A model generated the notes under the pieces. It made no database searches. It was not told where the DNA came from and was given only the letters and a program-made list of their open reading frames with translations. Shown here one piece after another: positions 2,796 to 10,518 of a stretch of DNA of 64,000 nucleotides (position 1 is its first letter; each line of letters begins with the position of its first letter). This stretch comes from Kineococcus rhizosphaerae (GTDB lineage: Bacteria; Actinomycetota; Actinomycetes; Actinomycetales; Kineococcaceae), in NCBI RefSeq assembly GCF_003002055.1, contig NZ_PVZF01000011.1, positions 1 to 64,000 of the forward strand, in the 5' to 3' direction. Both the position numbers and the translations under genes were made by a program.

Positions 2796-4328
2796 CTACC
2801 CCTGCGGCGCTGTTCCGTCGAGGCGGGCGCGGGCCGGGTCGGAAACCTCCTGGCCCCCTCGCCCCACGCCCGACCGGGCGCTCCCGTGACCGGCGCCGAC
2901 GGAGCGCAGCAGTTCGGTCACGTCGACGCCGGTGGTGCGCTTGAGCACCTCGAACGTCTCCTGCAGGTTGCTGCCCACCGACCGGCTGAGCGCACCGGCG
3001 CCGTCGTTGGAGATGACCGTGAGATCCTTGATGCCGGCGATGGGACTGGCCAGTGCTTGCGCCACCTGCGGCAGGACCTCCAGAGCACGCTGGGTGAGCG
3101 CGGCCTGCCCGAACTCCTTCAAGGCCTGCGCCTCCTTGCTCAGCGCCTCCGCCTTGGCCGCTCCGGTGAGAGTGAGCGCTTCTGCCTGCGCCTGTCCCTC
3201 CAGACGCACCGCGTTGGCGTCAGCGGTGCGACGCTGCAGTTCAGCCTCCGCGGCCAACTGGACCCGGGTCGCGTCGGCCTGCGCCGACAACCGCACCCGT
3301 TCGGCGTCGGCCTGCGCAGTGGCGACGGCGGCCTGCTGCTCGGCCTCAGCAGACAGGACCCGGGCGGTCTTGTGCGCCATCGCCTCCTGCTCGGCCTGGT
3401 AACGCCGGGCGTCAGCGGGCTTGCGGACCTCGGTGTCCAACGTCCGTTCGGTCAGCTCGGCTTGACGCTGGGCCACCCGTTCCTGCTCCTGCAGCACCTG
3501 CTGCTGCGCTGCCGCTTCCGCCAGCCGCCCCGCGGCGTCGGCCTCGGCGGCCGCCTTGTCCTGGTCGGCGCGGAACTGGGCCTGCTGCAACGCCAGGTCG
3601 CGTTGAGCTTGAGCGATCTTGGCGTCGGACAAGGACTTGGCCTGCTGCGCCTCCTGAGCGTTGTTGGCTTCGGCGATCTCCGCGGCACGACGGGCGTTCG
3701 CCGCTTCAGGCCGACCCAGGTCCTTGAGGTAGTTGCCGTCGTCGCTGACGTCCTGGATCTGCAAGGTGTCCAGCACCAGACCCTGGTTGTTCAGGCTGGT
3801 CACCGCCTCCTCCTCCACCTGACGGGCGAAGGCGACCCGGTCGCGGATGATCTCCTCCACCGTCAACGTCCCGATGACCCCGCGCAGGCTGCCGGCCAGG
3901 ACTTCCTGGGTGAACGGCTCGATCTCCTTCTGCTGCTGCAAGAACCGCTGGGCGGCGGCGCGGACGAAGTCCTCGGTCCCACCGACCTTGACGATGGCGA
4001 CCCCGTCGACGTTCAGGCGGATCCCCTGCCGCGAGACCGCGCCGCGGATGGAGATGGGGATGCGCACCGAGGACAACGACAACCGGTGCGCCTGCTGCAC
4101 CAGGGGCTTGACGAAGACGCCGGCACCCATGACCACCTTCTGCCCCGACAGGTCGGTGGTCACCTCCCCGGTCTGGGGGTTGGTGACCGGGCGTCCCTTG
4201 CGCCCCACGATGATGAGGGCCTCGGAGGGGCTGGCGATCTTGTAGCGGATCTTCACCGCCACAGCGACGACGAGCGCGACGAGGACGATCGCGGCGATGA
4301 CGACAGCACTGACGACGACGGTGTCCAT
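2796..4328 (-). CDS. Flotillin / SPFH-domain membrane protein
   Basis: A 510-residue protein of normal flotillin length. One N-terminal membrane helix (residues 1-27, VVVSAVVIAAIVLVALVVAV) is followed by an SPFH/band-7 domain (about 28-210, with RKGRPV and the TVEEIIRDR segment). A long Ala/Glu/Gln-rich coiled coil (about 215-400) contains repeated AEAEA-type motifs, and a flotillin C-terminal segment ends the protein (AQALASPIAGIKDLTVI). Flotillins scaffold ordered membrane microdomains. The ATG has an AAGGAG ribosome site 8 nt upstream. A 91-codon open frame ends 1 nt before it. The stop is TAG. Confidence 0.93.
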   Translation of the reverse strand: MDTVVVSAVVIAAIVLVALVVAVAVKIRYKIASPSEALIIVGRKGRPVTNPQTGEVTTDLSGQKVVMGAGVFVKPLVQQAHRLSLSSVRIPISIRGAVSRQGIRLNVDGVAIVKVGGTEDFVRAAAQRFLQQQKEIEPFTQEVLAGSLRGVIGTLTVEEIIRDRVAFARQVEEEAVTSLNNQGLVLDTLQIQDVSDDGNYLKDLGRPEAANARRAAEIAEANNAQEAQQAKSLSDAKIAQAQRDLALQQAQFRADQDKAAAEADAAGRLAEAAAQQQVLQEQERVAQRQAELTERTLDTEVRKPADARRYQAEQEAMAHKTARVLSAEAEQQAAVATAQADAERVRLSAQADATRVQLAAEAELQRRTADANAVRLEGQAQAEALTLTGAAKAEALSKEAQALKEFGQAALTQRALEVLPQVAQALASPIAGIKDLTVISNDGAGALSRSVGSNLQETFEVLKRTTGVDVTELLRSVGAGHGSARSGVGRGGQEVSDPARARLDGTAPQG

Positions 4329-4329
4329 C

Positions 4330-4605
4330 TCACTCAACTCCTTGTGGGGACAGCACCACGACGCCGGAGGCACCGTGGACGGACAGGGGTGACACGCGGG
4401 GGGGCACGCAGCGCAGAGTGCTGCCGCACGAGCGACTAGCCGAACCCTCACGAGGCGTCTGGACGAGTTCCGCGGCCAGGGTCTCGTCGAACGTTCCGCG
4501 GGGCGCTCGTCGTCCGCTCCGGCGTCTGGCGCGGGAGGAGGCGGGGGTCGCCGAGGGGCCGCAGAACGCGCACCGGCGCAGCGTGGCAGTGAGGTCGGTG
4601 TCCAT
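4330..4605 (-). CDS. Possible small Cys-containing protein upstream of flotillin
   Basis: An ATG-started 91-codon frame (MDTDLTATLRRCAFCGPSAT...) with GC-rich third positions over most of its length and a CxxC pair at residues 12-15. Its TGA ends one base before the flotillin ATG, as expected for translational coupling. The ribosome site is weak, I recognise no family, and it is not NfeD, the usual flotillin partner. It could also be untranslated leader. Confidence 0.35.
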   Translation of the reverse strand: MDTDLTATLRRCAFCGPSATPASSRARRRSGRRAPRGTFDETLAAELVQTPREGSASRSCGSTLRCVPPRVSPLSVHGASGVVVLSPQGVE

Positions 4606-4806
4606 GTCAGCACCTGTTCCCGAGATCGACGACGTCATCGCCGACCAGGCTTCCCGGCACACCAGAGATCATGATAACCACATCCCCGGTCACCGGGGAC
4701 TCGTCGGCCGGCGTCCCGCTCCACCGCGTCGAGCGGGTCCATCGCGATCGACGAGCGTCGGTGTCCTCGCGGGTGGTTCGGCGGTGCGGCAGCGGGGCGT
4801 GCAGCC

Positions 4807-6504
4807 TCACAGGTCGAGGCACACGATCGTCGCGTCCCGGTCCGGGCCGTCGGCACCCGCGAGGTCGAGCAGGTCGGTGATGACCTGACGCACCACCTCC
4901 TCGGCGGCCAGCGCCCGTGAGCGGTTGACGACGGTCTCGACACGGCGGCGGCCCCGGGCGGGGAAGGGACCGAAACCGTCACCCACCAGCACGAGGCGGT
5001 CGCCGCGCTGGACGTCCAGCGGCTCCGTCGCGTAGTCGGCCTCACCCGTGAGCCCCAAGGCGTCGTTGACCGCCAGCTCCAGCTGTTGCAGCGACGCACC
5101 GCGCTGGCGGTGCACGCTGATGTCGGAGCTGGCCAAGGCGTGCACGCGCCAGGGTTCGAACTCCACCCGCAGCAGGAGCATGTCGACGAGCACCTCCCCG
5201 TGGTGCTCTCCGAACACCGCCTCGTCGACCAGCCGCGCCTGCTCCGCGGGATGCAGGCCGAGGCTGCGTGCGTGCCGGAGCGCGCCCAGCGCCAGCCCCG
5301 TCACGCCGGCGGCGTGGCGCCCCTGCGAGCGGCAGTCCAGGACGGCGACGTCCAGGTGGACCGCTGGCCGGCCGTCGGAGGCCGAACCCCGGCGCGGGGG
5401 GACGGACACCACCTCCAGGTCGTGGGCTTCGGCTCCTCCACTGGCCGAGGGCTCGGTGTGCGCTGACGCCCTGACCCCCTGCGCGGCCAGGAACAGCGGA
5501 CCCGACTGACGTGCCTGCACCTCCCCGGCCACGGTCCACTCGCGCGTGCGGGCGGCCAGGTGCATCCGGCGGCTGCCGGTGCTGACCGACGGGAGCAGTG
5601 GACCGGCGGTGGAGGCCAGGGCCGAGAGCAGGTCGGACCAGGTCTCGGGGGGAACGTCCGCTCCGGCGTCGGCGTCGTCCTGCCAGCGCACGCTGAGCAC
5701 CGCGACGCACCGCCCGGCGCACCTCACAGGTGCGTGGACCACCCCCGCGGCACCGTCGACCTCCACGACCACGTCGTCCTCGCGCAGGGCCTGCCCGGCG
5801 GGACTGCGCTCCACCGGTTCGTCCTGCGGGGCCCGTTCGTCCTGCGCCCCGGTCCAGGACACCGGCCTCAGCACCCGGCCGTCCGGGGACAGGAGCCGCA
5901 GGGTCACCGCGTCCGAGGCGAGCGTCCGGCCCACGACCGCCACCAGGACGTCGGGGACGGTGTGCGGGTCGGCAGCCACCAGCGCGGTGGACAGAGCGTG
6001 GCACGCCTGCGCGGTACCGCCCGGGTGGGCCCACCCCGTGCCGCTCCTCGTCGCGTCGGGCTGCGCTCCCGCTCTCTCAGCCCCCTCGTCGCCGTCGGGT
6101 CGCGCAGCGCGCAGGCCCTGCTCCACGGACGCGCGGGCGGGACCCTCCAGCTGGGAGAGCAGGTCGGCCAGGACGGCCACCCGGGCGTCGGCCCAACGCT
6201 GGGCCACGACCCGCCCCCGCCGGGTCAGCGCCAGCTCCACCTCCCGGCGGCTGTCGGAACCGTCCTGGCGCACGAGCAGCCCCGCGCCGCTGAGCCGGTC
6301 GGCCAGCCGGCTGGCCGTCGAGACCGCGACGCCCAGGCTCGTGGCCACGGCGCTCACCGACAGCGGGCCGGTGTCGGCCAGCAGGGCCAGCACGCGCAGC
6401 TGCGTGGGAGTCACCGTCGGCTCGATGGCCTCCGCCGCGCGCATGGTGCCCTGCAGCACGTCCGAGGACAGCTTCAGCAGTCCGCGCCGGAGGTCGTCGT
6501 CCAC
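4807..6504 (-). CDS. MarR-GAF-PP2C (SpoIIE-like) fusion regulator
   Basis: N-terminal MarR winged helix (about residues 1-135: TPTQLRVLALLADTGPLSVS, then AVSTASRLADRLSGAGLL), a GAF-like sensor (about 165-310), and a C-terminal PP2C/SpoIIE-like domain (about 335-565, ending DRDATIVCLDL). The phosphatase metal motifs are altered: the GGDxYD region reads GGAEAHD, GDVxGxG reads LDCRSQG, and TDG reads GDG. Activity may therefore be weak or lost. GTG at 6504 is preferred (GCAGGATGG upstream); an ATG at 6549 is possible. It is divergent from the rhodopsin operon with about 150 bp between, so it is a candidate regulator of it. A deleted paralog lies at 1423-1615. Confidence 0.82.
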   Translation of the reverse strand: MDDDLRRGLLKLSSDVLQGTMRAAEAIEPTVTPTQLRVLALLADTGPLSVSAVATSLGVAVSTASRLADRLSGAGLLVRQDGSDSRREVELALTRRGRVVAQRWADARVAVLADLLSQLEGPARASVEQGLRAARPDGDEGAERAGAQPDATRSGTGWAHPGGTAQACHALSTALVAADPHTVPDVLVAVVGRTLASDAVTLRLLSPDGRVLRPVSWTGAQDERAPQDEPVERSPAGQALREDDVVVEVDGAAGVVHAPVRCAGRCVAVLSVRWQDDADAGADVPPETWSDLLSALASTAGPLLPSVSTGSRRMHLAARTREWTVAGEVQARQSGPLFLAAQGVRASAHTEPSASGGAEAHDLEVVSVPPRRGSASDGRPAVHLDVAVLDCRSQGRHAAGVTGLALGALRHARSLGLHPAEQARLVDEAVFGEHHGEVLVDMLLLRVEFEPWRVHALASSDISVHRQRGASLQQLELAVNDALGLTGEADYATEPLDVQRGDRLVLVGDGFGPFPARGRRRVETVVNRSRALAAEEVVRQVITDLLDLAGADGPDRDATIVCLDL

Positions 6505-6611
6505 CGCCCCATCCTGCCCCGGCGCCCCTCCGGCACATCCCCAGGACATCCCCAGGCGTGCGGGAGCGTTCTGCCGCGCCCGGACCGCGATCCGGTCCTA
6601 CGGTCATGGTG

Positions 6612-6632
6612 TTGCGCCTCGCAAACGTTGCG
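6612..6632. promoter_or_regulatory. TTGCG repeat cluster in the rhodopsin promoter region
   Basis: TTGCG-cct-CGCAA (6612-6624) is followed by another TTGCG (6628-6632) overlapping AACGTT. This gives an inverted plus a direct repeat about 25-45 bp before the rhodopsin start. It has the size and place of an operator for the divergent MarR-type regulator. The link is inference. Confidence 0.4.
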
Positions 6633-6657
6633 TCGCGCTCATACCCGAGGAGATCAC

Positions 6658-7638
6658 GTGCTTCCCACAGCCCTGGCGGGAGCGGAGTTCACCGCCACCT
6701 CGACCTACAGCTCCACCCAGTACTCGCTGGTCCTGTACTCCTTCGTCGTCGCCGCCTTCGCCCTGTTCGCCACCGGCGTGTACGGCGCCAAGACCACCGC
6801 TGAGATCGGCAAGGCGTACCGCCCCGCGGCCATCGCCAGCACCCTCATCTGCTGGGTGGCGACCCTCGCCTACGTCGCGCTCATCCTCGAGTGGGTCCTC
6901 GGCTTCAACGCCTCCGCCGACGGCTCCACCTTCACCCCCGCCCCGGGGACGGTGGTCACCGAGCTGCGGTACACGGACTGGTCGGTCACCGTGCCGCTGC
7001 TGACGGTCGAACTGCTCGCCGTCGCCGCCCTGACCCGCAGCCAGGCGTTCCGGCTGCGCACGATCGCCGTCCCGGCCGCCTTCCTCATGATCGCCACCGG
7101 TTACCTCGGCGTCGTCCAGGGCGAGGACTCCCACCAGGGCACCACCGCGGCCCTGTGGGTCTGGGGGGCGGTCAGCACCGCCTTCTTCATCGTCCTGTAC
7201 GTGATCGCCTGGCGCGCCTACCGGGCCACGAAGGACCGGGTCTCGGCCGAGACCCGGATCAGCTACCGCAACGCGCTCGTCCTGCTGCTCAGCGTCTTCG
7301 GCGCCTACCCGCTGGCCTACCTGGTCCCGGCGTGGGCCGGCGCCTCGAACGCCGGCTGGGCCACGACCGAGCAGCTCGTCTTCAGCTTCGCCGACATCGC
7401 GGCCAAGGCCGGCTTCGGGCTGCTCATCCACAAGGTCGCCAAGCTGCGCACCGCCGAGGACGCCCTCGCCGCCGGCGGCGGCACCGAGACCCACCGGGCG
7501 GTGACGGTGCCGGACACGCTGCCGAGCGAGGTCTGGGTGTCCGGGACCCTGCTGTCCGTGCCGCCGGTCGCGGCGTCCGCGGTCGCGCTGGACGGGACGA
7601 CCGCGGCCTCCGGACCGGCCGCCGCCCACCGGTCCTGA
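6658..7638 (+). CDS. Microbial rhodopsin, predicted light-driven proton pump
   Basis: A 326-residue seven-helix protein (helices near 21-42, 56-78, 106-127, 131-151, 164-187, 203-228, 236-260). Helix C reads RYTDWSVTVPLLTVE: R104, counterion D107, T111 and donor E118, the DTE motif of outward proton pumps. Helix G has D246 and the retinal Schiff-base lysine K250 (SFADIAAK). L115 is at the green-tuning position of proteorhodopsin. G170 (WVWGAVST) matches the Gly that opens the carotenoid site in xanthorhodopsin, where bacteriorhodopsin has Trp. The helix-B His of proteorhodopsin appears to be V73. The GTG is set by AGGAG 6 nt upstream. blh follows directly. Confidence 0.93.
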   Translation: MLPTALAGAEFTATSTYSSTQYSLVLYSFVVAAFALFATGVYGAKTTAEIGKAYRPAAIASTLICWVATLAYVALILEWVLGFNASADGSTFTPAPGTVVTELRYTDWSVTVPLLTVELLAVAALTRSQAFRLRTIAVPAAFLMIATGYLGVVQGEDSHQGTTAALWVWGAVSTAFFIVLYVIAWRAYRATKDRVSAETRISYRNALVLLLSVFGAYPLAYLVPAWAGASNAGWATTEQLVFSFADIAAKAGFGLLIHKVAKLRTAEDALAAGGGTETHRAVTVPDTLPSEVWVSGTLLSVPPVAASAVALDGTTAASGPAAAHRS

Positions 7639-7664
7639 TCGACGTGGCCGCCACCCCGGGCGAG

Positions 7665-8828
7665 GTGCCGCGCGTGCTCTTCATACCCACCCGTGCGTGG
7701 CGCCGGGTCCTGGACCTCCCCGTCCTGGTCGCGGTGGTGACGACGGTCGTGGCCCTCGTCACCACCGCCGGCCGGTCCGGGACGGCGGCGCTGCCCGCCG
7801 TCCTCACCGGGGCGGGCGCCTCCGCCGGCCCGGCAGGTGCCGTCCTGCTCACGGTCAGCCTCCTGGTGGGCCTGCCCCACGGCGCGGTCGACCTGCTGCG
7901 GCCGGAGGTCCTCGCCCCCGGGGCCACGGCCCGCCACCGGCGCGCGGTCACGGCGGCCTACCTGGGCGGTGCGCTGGTCGTCGCCTGCTGCTGGCTGGTG
8001 AGCCCGTCGCCGACCCTGCTCGGCCTGCTGCTGCTGGCCGGGGTCCACTTCGCCGCCGCCGACGACGGCACCAGCCGCTGGAAGGCCGGGACCGGGCGTC
8101 CCTCCCCCTTCCGCGAGCGACTGCCCGGGCTCGTCGCCGCCGGGGGACTGCCGGTCGCCGTCCCCCTCGGTCTGCACGGCGAGGCCGTCCACGACGTGCT
8201 GGCGGGCCTGTCCGGCGGCCACGCCTCCGTGGTCGTCACGTGCGCCAGGGTCTGCGCCGTCCCCGTGCTCGCCGCCGCGGTCGCCGCGGTCGTCCTGACC
8301 CTGCGGCTCCGGCGGTGGTCGGCGGCGGTGGAGACGGCCGCCCTGGCCGGGCTGTTCGTGCTCGTCACCCCGCTGCTGGCCTTCGCCGTCTACTTCGGGC
8401 TCTGGCACTCCTGGCGCCAGGTGGCCCGCATGGTGGCCGTCGACGCCGCCCGCGACCGCGTCGCCCCGTCGGCGGCCCTGCGGGCGTTCTGCCGCACCGC
8501 CGCGCTGCCCACCGCGCTCACCGTCGCCGCCGGGACGGTGGCCGTGCTCGCCGGCGGGAACTCCGTGCTCGTCGTCGGCCTGGCGCTCGTGCTCTGCCTC
8601 ACCGTGCCCCACAGCGTCGTCGTGGCCCGCGCGGACGGGTCGCTGCGCCGGCCGCGACGGGCCGGGCACCGGCCGGACGGTGCGACGGGCCGGCGTCCGG
8701 CCCGGGTCACGGCCGGCCCCCCAGCAGGTCCGGCACCCGCACGCAGGCCTCCAGCGCCAGCGCGTGCACGAAACCCTGCGGCAGGTTCCCGCGCAGCTGG
8801 TGCTGCCCGGGGTCGAACTCCTCGCTGA
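7665..8828 (+). CDS. blh: Brp/Blh-type beta-carotene 15,15'-dioxygenase
   Basis: A polytopic membrane protein that cleaves beta-carotene to two retinals, the chromophore of the rhodopsin encoded just upstream. Conserved iron-ligand histidines of the family are visible: GLPHGAVD (H72), GVHFAAADD (H128), FGLWHSWRQ (H248) and TVPHSVVV (H316). Start choices are GTG 7644, 7665 or 7674; none has a strong ribosome site, consistent with coupling to the rhodopsin stop at 7638. The last about 65 residues are Pro/Ala/Arg-rich and overlap the 3' end of the opposite-strand GH15 gene by 122 bp. No carotenoid synthesis genes are in the window. Confidence 0.9.
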   Translation: MPRVLFIPTRAWRRVLDLPVLVAVVTTVVALVTTAGRSGTAALPAVLTGAGASAGPAGAVLLTVSLLVGLPHGAVDLLRPEVLAPGATARHRRAVTAAYLGGALVVACCWLVSPSPTLLGLLLLAGVHFAAADDGTSRWKAGTGRPSPFRERLPGLVAAGGLPVAVPLGLHGEAVHDVLAGLSGGHASVVVTCARVCAVPVLAAAVAAVVLTLRLRRWSAAVETAALAGLFVLVTPLLAFAVYFGLWHSWRQVARMVAVDAARDRVAPSAALRAFCRTAALPTALTVAAGTVAVLAGGNSVLVVGLALVLCLTVPHSVVVARADGSLRRPRRAGHRPDGATGRRPARVTAGPPAGPAPARRPPAPARARNPAAGSRAAGAARGRTPR

Positions 8829-10518
8829 ACAGCTGCGGCGGTCCGGCGGCGGCCAGCGCCTTCTCCAGCCGGGAGACGGCGCGCACGGTCTGCCCGAGCT
8901 GCGCCTCGGTCAGGGCGGTCCAGTAGGAGCACAGCAGGAACGCCCCCTCGGCCTCCGGCAGCGGGCGGGCGTCGTGGCGGAACCGGAACACGTAGCCGTC
9001 CAGGCTCAGCTCGGACTGCACGGCGGCCAGCGTGTCCAGCGTCCGCGGGTCGTCCACCGGCACGGCCCCGCGCAGCCCGGCCAGCAGCAGCGCCGCGTCG
9101 ACGCGCTCGTCGTCGGCGGCCCGCTGCCAACGACCGCTGGGGTGCAGCCCGGTGCGGGTCGCCTCGGCCAGCACCTGGTCGGCCAGCAGCAGCGTGGACG
9201 TGTCCCGGTGCCGCGCAGGCGCAGCGGACCGGGACGCCGCGGACCAGGCGCGCAACCCGGCGACGACGGCCAGTTTGCTGTGGGTCCACTGCCGGTCCTC
9301 CAGTTCCCAGATCCCGGCGTCCGGTTCCCGCCAGCGCTGCGCGATCGCGTCCACGGCGATCCGGGCGGCGCGTTCGCCGTCCTCGTCGAGCCGGTCCCGG
9401 CGGGCGGCGGCCGCGAAGACCTGCAGGGCCTCGCCGAACGCGTCGAGCTGGAACTGCGTGCGCACCTGGTTGCCCGTACCGGCGTCGGAGCCGGGGTACC
9501 CCGGCAGGTCCACGCGCCCCGGGCCGGGGACGGGGTCGCCGTCGGCGGTGTAGGCCGGGGCCAGGTGCGCGCCGTCGGCCAGCAACCGGGCGGTGAGGAA
9601 CCGGGTCGCGCTGTCCCCCAGCCGGTCGTCGCCCGCGGTGTAGGCGGCCACCCCCGCGTAGCACTGGTCCCGCACCCAGGCGTAGCGGTAGTCGTAGTCC
9701 TCGTGGGCGTCGGCCCGTTCGGGCAGGGACGTCGTGGCGGCGGCGACCATCGCCCCGGCCGCGCTCGTCAGGCCGTGCAGGACGGCGAGGCTGTGCCGGG
9801 CCTGCGGCGGGGACCAGGCCCCGTCGAGCGCGGGGACCCGGCCGGCCCACTCGGCCTCGGTCTCCTGCCAGCGCACGGGGGCGGGGACCGGCCGCGGCCA
9901 GTTCCGCGGGTCCCCCGGCCCGACCTCCAGCACGAGGTCGTGCTCCTGCCCCGCGTCGAGGTCCAGCACGGTCGTGAGCCCGGGGTACCGCCTGCTGCGG
10001 ACCGCGTCGGGGGCACCGGTCCAGCGCAGTCCGAGGTCACCGGTGCGCAGGGTCCACGTCCCGTCGTCCCCGCGGTGCTCGTCGCGCACGCCGTCCCGGT
10101 CGAAACCCGCCCGGGGGTCGAGGTCGACGACGACCCGGGCCCGGCCGCGCAGCACGCGGACCCGGCGCAGCAGCACGACCCGGTCGGGGTCGGCGGGCAG
10201 CGCGAGCGCGTCGCGGCACTCCACGACGGCCCCGTCGTCGCTCACCCACCGGTTGCGCCACACCAGGGACCCGGGTTCGTAGGACCCGCCCCAGGTGCAC
10301 CGCGCGGCGGGCGCGACCCGGTACCGGCTGCGGCCACCGAGCAGCGCCGAGAACACCGCCGGGTCCTCGAACCGCGGTGCGCACAGCCACGCGACGTCGC
10401 CGTGCGGGCCGACGAGCGCACCCCGCTCCCCGTCGGCCAGCAGCGCGAACTCGCGCAGGGTGTGCGCGACGGGGCCCGGGCGCGCCTCGTCGTCCTGCGC
10501 CGCTCCCGCCCCGCTCAC
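8707..10518 (-). CDS. Glycoside hydrolase family 15 protein
   Basis: About 603 residues with an N-terminal beta-rich domain and a C-terminal (alpha/alpha)6 barrel of the glucoamylase/trehalase-type GH15 family. Visible motifs are HEDYDYRYAWVRD, GIWELEDRQWTHSK with the likely general acid Glu, and FSEEFDPGQHQLRGNLPQGF with the likely base Glu. There is no signal peptide, so it probably acts in the cytoplasm on alpha-glucosides such as trehalose or malto-oligosaccharides; the substrate is not settled. GTG 10518 overlaps the upstream stop (GTGA), which argues against starting at 10542. Last gene of a three-gene operon with 10515-10856 and 10853-11908. Confidence 0.9.
   Translation of the reverse strand: MSGAGAAQDDEARPGPVAHTLREFALLADGERGALVGPHGDVAWLCAPRFEDPAVFSALLGGRSRYRVAPAARCTWGGSYEPGSLVWRNRWVSDDGAVVECRDALALPADPDRVVLLRRVRVLRGRARVVVDLDPRAGFDRDGVRDEHRGDDGTWTLRTGDLGLRWTGAPDAVRSRRYPGLTTVLDLDAGQEHDLVLEVGPGDPRNWPRPVPAPVRWQETEAEWAGRVPALDGAWSPPQARHSLAVLHGLTSAAGAMVAAATTSLPERADAHEDYDYRYAWVRDQCYAGVAAYTAGDDRLGDSATRFLTARLLADGAHLAPAYTADGDPVPGPGRVDLPGYPGSDAGTGNQVRTQFQLDAFGEALQVFAAAARRDRLDEDGERAARIAVDAIAQRWREPDAGIWELEDRQWTHSKLAVVAGLRAWSAASRSAAPARHRDTSTLLLADQVLAEATRTGLHPSGRWQRAADDERVDAALLLAGLRGAVPVDDPRTLDTLAAVQSELSLDGYVFRFRHDARPLPEAEGAFLLCSYWTALTEAQLGQTVRAVSRLEKALAAAGPPQLFSEEFDPGQHQLRGNLPQGFVHALALEACVRVPDLLGGRP

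Follow-up and report, generated by a model that had tools for sequence, protein, structure and literature searches.

We analysed a 64,000-nucleotide (nt) stretch of the Kineococcus rhizosphaerae genome (contig NZ_PVZF01000011.1, positions 1 to 64,000; the genome comprises 5.6 Mb in 63 contigs), referred to here as the window, with a focus on a gene for a putative one-chain regulator that lies beside genes for a microbial rhodopsin and for the enzyme that supplies its retinal. A first-pass annotation had placed the regulator head to head with a rhodopsin-blh operon, across a gap spanning 6505-6657, and both the orientation of the three genes and the limits of the gap were borne out. The features of the locus are as follows.

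4807..6504, minus strand: MarR-GAF-PP2C (SpoIIE-like) regulator, 565 amino acids (Pfam, homologue alignment, AlphaFold model, and fold comparison)
6238..6414, minus strand: MarR winged-helix domain of the regulator (PF01047, 8e-12; best PDB sequence match Rv1404, 2nyx, 1.5e-13)
5581..6036, minus strand: GAF-fold domain, protein residues 157-308 (fold only)
4807..5499, minus strand: PP2C/SpoIIE-like domain with altered metal site, protein residues 336-565 (PF07228, 3.1e-15; 3ke6, Z 22.6; motif changes)
6505..6657, no strand: divergent intergenic region between the regulator and the rhodopsin gene
6612..6632, plus strand: operator-like element TTGCG-n3-CGCAA-n3-TTGCG; its conserved 18-mer, at 6612-6629, is present in all four gaps compared
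6599..6604, plus strand: TACGGT, possible -10 hexamer (TANNNT), 7 nt ahead of the operator-like element (by eye)
6647..6652, plus strand: GAGGAG, resembling a ribosome-binding site, ahead of the rhodopsin GTG (sequence)
6658..7638, plus strand: microbial rhodopsin of the DTE type (proton-pump type), 326 amino acids (PF01036, 1.6e-29; motif residues)
7644..8828, plus strand: Brp/Blh beta-carotene 15,15'-dioxygenase, retinal supply (BCD, 7.4e-38; TIGR03753)

Four loci were compared: those of the window, of a second genome of the same genus (G004), of G119, and of Quadrisphaera sp. INWT6 (G126), which belongs to the family of G119. Among 11 genomes of the genus, 2 carry the full-length regulator (the window genome and G004; the twelfth, G071, gave no match); among 119 drawn from the order, 3 do (the same two and G119), and among 13 in the G119 family, 2 do (G119 and INWT6). 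Rhodopsins of clade a, defined by an E value below 1e-150 with the A2 profile, were present in the same four genomes, 2 of the 12 searched in one family and 2 of the 13 in the other, or 4 of 25; the remaining 21 had neither a clade-a rhodopsin nor a full-length regulator. At each of the four loci the regulator gene is divergent from those for rhodopsin and Blh, the latter recognized by Pfam. When the open reading frames (ORFs) called in the four loci (18-20 kb each) were compared by BLAST (E ≤ 1e-8), only the regulator, the rhodopsin, and blh were common to them. By Pfam, the flanks differ: the window genes include those for a GH15 enzyme and a flotillin, G004 has a formate/nitrite transporter and a Mutator transposase, G119 encodes BCCT and ThrE transporters, and INWT6 encodes chemotaxis receptors together with a GAF-PAS-SpoIIE phosphatase. 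The first-pass annotation had staked its proposal beforehand on a conserved neighbourhood in relatives, and all four clade-a genomes, from two families and with different flanks, retain the divergent trio. When genome contigs were scanned with the regulator, 31 pattern matches came up, none of which was confirmed; the patterns were strict and INWT6 was missed as well, so that the rarity of the regulator is judged from the searches of the genus, order, family, and class. Plasmid records yielded a single distant rhodopsin (38.7%), and the regulator matched 11 of them, each only in part.

The regulator is read from a GTG start, and its homologues align from position 6504; an in-frame ATG at 6549 is a possible alternative. 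Its MarR domain scored 45.3 bits in Pfam (cut-off 24.6), with those of all three homologues also over the cut-off, and the motif VSTASR..DRLS within this domain is conserved in the four fused regulators. The SpoIIE domain scored 57.1 bits (cut-off 25), and a Pfam search of the protein gave no match to GAF. An AlphaFold model built from four homologues had a mean predicted local distance difference test (pLDDT) score of 67.6 and a predicted template modelling score of 0.49, with ten-residue pLDDT means of 70-87 over residues 161-270. Residues 157-308 of this model match the GAF structures 4g3v (Z 17.5, root mean square deviation [rmsd] 2.6, 142 residues aligned) and 3ci6 (Z 17.5, rmsd 3.2, 147 aligned), and residues 336-565 match the PP2C structure 3ke6, the RsbU-RsbW part of Rv1364c (rmsd 2.8, 212 aligned). 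The list of fold matches was filled by GAF and PP2C domains, and the lack of MarR proteins in it carries no information. Taken together, the Pfam matches and the predicted folds confirm the MarR-GAF-PP2C design that had been claimed for this single chain, the GAF part by fold alone.

The rhodopsin carries R104, D107, T111, E118, D246, and K250. A D-T-E motif set is typical of proton-pump rhodopsins, and with D107-T111-E118 and the Schiff-base lysine K250 the protein is, by motif, of the outward proton-pump type. Blh scored 152.7 bits with TIGR03753 (cut-off 95.25). The genus has five other rhodopsin genes, of two other types (b and c). The two type-c genes have their own blh (Pfam), the type-b genes adjoin neither blh nor a MarR-GAF-PP2C regulator, and no such regulator was seen beside any of the five in the ORF lists. 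In the rhodopsin tree, which carried a long-branch warning and from which L044, L050, and L110 were left out (no usable frame was extracted), clade a forms a group (99/96) whose sister is type b (100/100). Two further observations concern the protein itself. The glycine of W169-G170 (window 7162-7167) is kept in three aligned rows; placed by eye, this glycine is at the position of W138 of bacteriorhodopsin (BR), where a glycine in other pumps creates an opening that admits a carotenoid antenna. Membership in the CryoRhodopsins was considered and rejected: R57 of CryoR1 aligns with S61, and the helix-B arginine (position of BR T46) is missing.

The gap between the divergent genes had been proposed as a possible binding region of the regulator, and it does hold a conserved palindromic element. 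All four gaps have TTGCRCnnCGCAAnnGTT in common, with palindromic half-sites. The window and G004 have TTGCG-n3-CGCAA-n3-TTGCG, three alternating half-sites that form two overlapping palindromes, and G119 and INWT6 have the imperfect palindrome TTGCA-n3-CGCAA. The classical MarR box is TTGC...GCAA, which this candidate operator resembles. The best ungapped 21-mer shared by the four gaps has 13 invariant columns versus a maximum of 11 in 400 dinucleotide-shuffled sets (mean, 9.5; standard deviation, 0.56). At up to 1 mismatch the element occurs exactly once in each of the four whole genomes, always in this gap (6612-6629 in the window), with no second site at this threshold and no occurrence of the reversed control. 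Measured from the rhodopsin end of the gap, as delimited here, the element starts at 46 bp in the window, 45 bp in G004, 77 bp in G119, and 238 bp in INWT6, and a hexamer of the -10 pattern TANNNT was seen by eye 7-9 nt ahead of it in the window, G004, and INWT6.

The element might instead serve as a promoter core or in a leader, or be bound by another regulator, with the MarR protein merely a travelling neighbour; in the window its position close to where rhodopsin transcription may start would suit this. General promoter parts would recur in a genome, however, whereas this element at up to 1 mismatch is found only beside the regulator. It is also absent, even at up to 4 mismatches, from the 400 bp upstream of all five type-b and type-c rhodopsin genes, and a search of the curated RNA families of Rfam gave no match in window positions 4000-9500. 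We consider such an origin very improbable. A direct repeat, ACATCCCCAGG-ACATCCCCAGG, is present at 6535-6556, in the half of the gap nearer the regulator.

Intact SpoIIE/PP2C domains bind metal through the motifs GGD, DGxGxG, DG, and DD. The corresponding positions in the window's regulator are E359, D390-C391, D509, and R556, which depart from the intact set. We compared the four fused proteins with five unfused GAF-PP2C or SpoIIE sequences. The GGD aspartate is E, E, D, and D in the window, G004, G119, and INWT6, versus D in all five comparison sequences, and the first aspartate of the last DD motif is R, E, E, and Q in the same order, again versus D in all five. The aspartates of the DGMGHG loop (D390) and of the DG motif (D509) are kept in every fused protein; at the former, two comparison sequences have D and three have N, the three being separate GAF-PP2C proteins of the genomes G451, G321, and G359. 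The glycine-rich loop itself, of DGMGHG type, has become DCR[ST] in all four fused proteins, which share H361 and C391, neither of which is found in any of the five comparison sequences. The phosphatase motifs are therefore partly altered, as the first-pass annotation had noted, and the changes are common to the four fused homologues. They make normal catalysis doubtful, and the module is probably not a normal phosphatase; the earlier suggestion that it serves as a sensor rather than as an enzyme is plausible on the same evidence.

Conversely, the PP2C domain could still work as a Ser/Thr phosphatase that, in the manner of RsbU, dephosphorylates a STAS-type partner, with the MarR part placing it at the promoter or reporting its state. 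The modelled PP2C fold extends across the whole domain and would permit this, as would D390 and D509 and the GGD-position aspartate retained in G119 and INWT6. The replaced DD aspartate and the remodelled loop speak against it. A Pfam search of 24 flanking ORFs from the four loci found a STAS or HATPase domain in none, a result confined to these flanks, as no search was made for partners elsewhere in the genomes. We regard an active phosphatase of this kind as highly doubtful.

Relatives of the two halves of the regulator exist as separate proteins. In a search of the class (394 genomes, 3 candidates scored per genome), at least 124 genomes had matches to the regulator; apart from the window's own gene, those listed begin no earlier than query residue 86 (the GAF-PP2C part) or end by residue 154 (the MarR part). 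G359, G451, and G321 each have a separate MarR gene and GAF-PP2C gene, head to head, the GAF-PP2C proteins being 28-29% identical to the regulator module. By Pfam, the neighbours in G451 are RsbRD_N-STAS, STAS, HATPase, and HATPase-SpoIIE proteins, an RsbR/S/T/X stressosome-like set, and those in G321 are RsbRD_N-STAS, HATPase, and SpoIIE proteins; no stressosome-like set was seen by eye in the stretch fetched from G359. The rhodopsin-linked regulator reads as a fusion of two such divergently encoded partners, with the direction of the fusion inferred. The divergent gaps of G451 (L077, 8646-8993) and G321 (L078, 4081-4272) share ACACTCTCGCAGGCAC...GTCAGCGTACTAGGC, and that of G359 has a similar ACTCTCGCA; this may perhaps be the operator of that MarR group. 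A long frame in G193 (L080, 1395-3533) was considered as another MarR fusion and rejected, as it encodes GAF-ANTAR and SpoIIE parts. It has the same kind of unrecognized stretch ahead of the SpoIIE module, which there would carry another output domain.

A more specific account of the altered domain would be that, after a stressosome-type phosphatase module fused to its MarR neighbour, the metal site was rebuilt as a Cys/His sensor site (H361, D390, C391, and D509), through which redox state, a metal, or the rhodopsin switches the pump and retinal genes by one chain and one DNA site, without kinase, anti-sigma factor, or sigma factor. We offer this as a speculation that is distinctly unlikely to hold in full.

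We consider it likely that the three genes form a portable cassette in which the one-chain MarR-GAF-PP2C regulator, acting through a dedicated operator at 6612-6632, governs expression of the rhodopsin-blh operon and, probably, of the regulator itself. A MarR dimer would bind the operator in the shared gap and from there control the operon and, probably, the regulator gene. Judged from the DNA, the regulator is most likely a repressor rather than an activator, because the window operator closely follows the possible -10 hexamer and ends 25 nt upstream of the rhodopsin GTG. The GAF domain, the altered PP2C domain, or both would sense a signal that changes the MarR dimer and releases it from the DNA, whereupon the pump and the retinal enzyme would be made together. 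With its catalytic centre having drifted in the fusion, the PP2C module would probably sense or relay rather than dephosphorylate. The control of the rhodopsin by its neighbour that had been proposed at the outset is, as far as sequence goes, supported by the conserved trio and by the conserved, rare element.

Several points weigh against this interpretation. Only four cassettes were found, two of them from congeners. The same four gaps served both to derive the element and to test it, and its weight rests on the shuffle test and on the lack of further copies. At up to 3 mismatches it exceeds the reversed control in all four genomes (278 versus 238, 177 versus 158, 164 versus 131, and 141 versus 104; by parts, 150+128, 88+89, 78+86, and 70+71 versus 112+126, 66+92, 80+51, and 51+53), and weaker further sites are possible. 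A wider regulon was considered and set aside, the excess being modest and no further target being named among the matches listed. At the G451, G321, and G359 loci the element is missing at up to 2 mismatches, and these relatives would bind other DNA. Each fused protein keeps two to three metal-site aspartates, which would allow some catalysis. As to repression, no clear TANNNT was seen by eye ahead of the element in G119, a simple promoter roadblock fits less well in INWT6 with its element 238 bp from the rhodopsin end, and a sigma-70 promoter scan of window positions 6400-6760 found none.

The last two observations would suit an activator that, bound at the element, brings polymerase to the rhodopsin promoter while the GAF and PP2C domains are in a signal-on state: the element is upstream of the rhodopsin gene at all four loci, and a promoter without sigma-70-like sequences is what activator-dependent genes often show. 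In the window and G004, however, just 46 and 45 bp separate the first base of the element, past the possible -10, from the gap end, and most MarR proteins repress. We hold activation to be unlikely.

The rhodopsin could also control the regulator through membrane contact, in a light feedback. Gloeobacter rhodopsin is reported to bind the helix-turn-helix (HTH) regulator GvTcR, which controls ABC transporter genes and itself (PMC11217422), and this provides a precedent. The four clade-a rhodopsins do share a related C-terminal tail, PDxLPxxVWxSG-like, that might serve as a dock, but a similar EVWIS tail occurs in three rhodopsins of the genus that lack the regulator, which weakens the case for the tail as a specific dock. 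This arrangement appears very unlikely, and repression through the gap operator remains the reading that we favour.

Other traces of the cassette and its surroundings were noted. A Mutator-family transposase in G004 (L025, 13742-15052), about 4 kb past the regulator, would be a possible means of cassette movement. The window holds a decayed partial copy of the regulator at 1428-1602 on the minus strand: residues 96-131 are at nt 1495-1602 (72% identity), and the regulator's last residues, DLAGRDGPDEDATIVCLDL, ending at nt 1428, adjoin this piece in a different frame, with the middle gone. G002, a congener without rhodopsin, has an orphan regulator tail (L032, 5751-5912; 67% identity to residues 518-565), and the 14 kb searched there contain neither rhodopsin nor blh (tblastn, E ≤ 0.01) nor the element at up to 2 mismatches. 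The orphan tail hints at loss of the cassette. The next gene beyond the window's regulator, at 2796-4328 on the minus strand, encodes a flotillin (Band_7, Pfam), and no flotillin was present among the subset of flanking ORFs searched by Pfam at the other three loci; flotillin-associated rhodopsins are the topic of PMC10308929.

How bacteria control rhodopsin production is little understood, and a dedicated regulator is little known for bacterial rhodopsins. The locus provides a testable model of such regulation, with a specific regulator and a genome-rare 21-bp candidate site, and the genus supplies natural controls in genomes with other rhodopsins that lack both regulator and element. It also suggests a route from a separate MarR and GAF-PP2C pair to one chain with a degenerate phosphatase, in which a partner-switching enzyme seems to have become a transcription factor's sensor.

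We found no description of a MarR-GAF-PP2C/rhodopsin pairing in the open PubMed Central literature, and several known systems resemble it in part. MarR at marO is a local MarR-family repressor with a divergent target. Such local repressors, of which Rv1404 (2nyx) is the nearest solved by sequence, likewise have a winged helix, a divergent gene, and a TTGC...GCAA palindrome in the gap; unlike them, the regulator described here is fused to GAF and PP2C domains, faces three alternating half-sites, and has no known ligand. The GAF-PP2C phosphatases of G451, G321, and G359 have the same module and a divergent MarR gene, but these are separate genes and the last metal aspartate is present, whereas the regulator here is fused, altered, and tied to a rhodopsin. 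Rv1364c, the best structural match, shares the PP2C fold and combines several signalling domains in one chain, but unlike our regulator is not known to have a MarR domain. Bat of Halobacterium has a GAF domain, and the Bat/Brz system is archaeal, with another DNA-binding domain and no known PP2C part. Its control of bop (PMC3184054) is also that of a dedicated regulator over a rhodopsin gene. GvTcR likewise ties a proton-pump rhodopsin to an HTH factor, and the abstract that describes it (PMC11217422) gives no MarR-GAF-PP2C architecture. The actinorhodopsins KrActR and QsActR are pumps from Kineococcus and Quadrisphaera (PMC5974397 and PMC11790970). CryoR1 and CryoR2, the nearest solved structures (8r0k, 1.6e-41), likewise have a long C-terminal tail and a putative partner gene next door (PMC12227055), but the rhodopsin here has S61 in place of the helix-B arginine and its partner would be a divergent DNA-binding regulator. 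By its genes and gap, the locus would be of a known type, local MarR control of a divergent operon, and what appears new is the unusual sensor and the unusual target.

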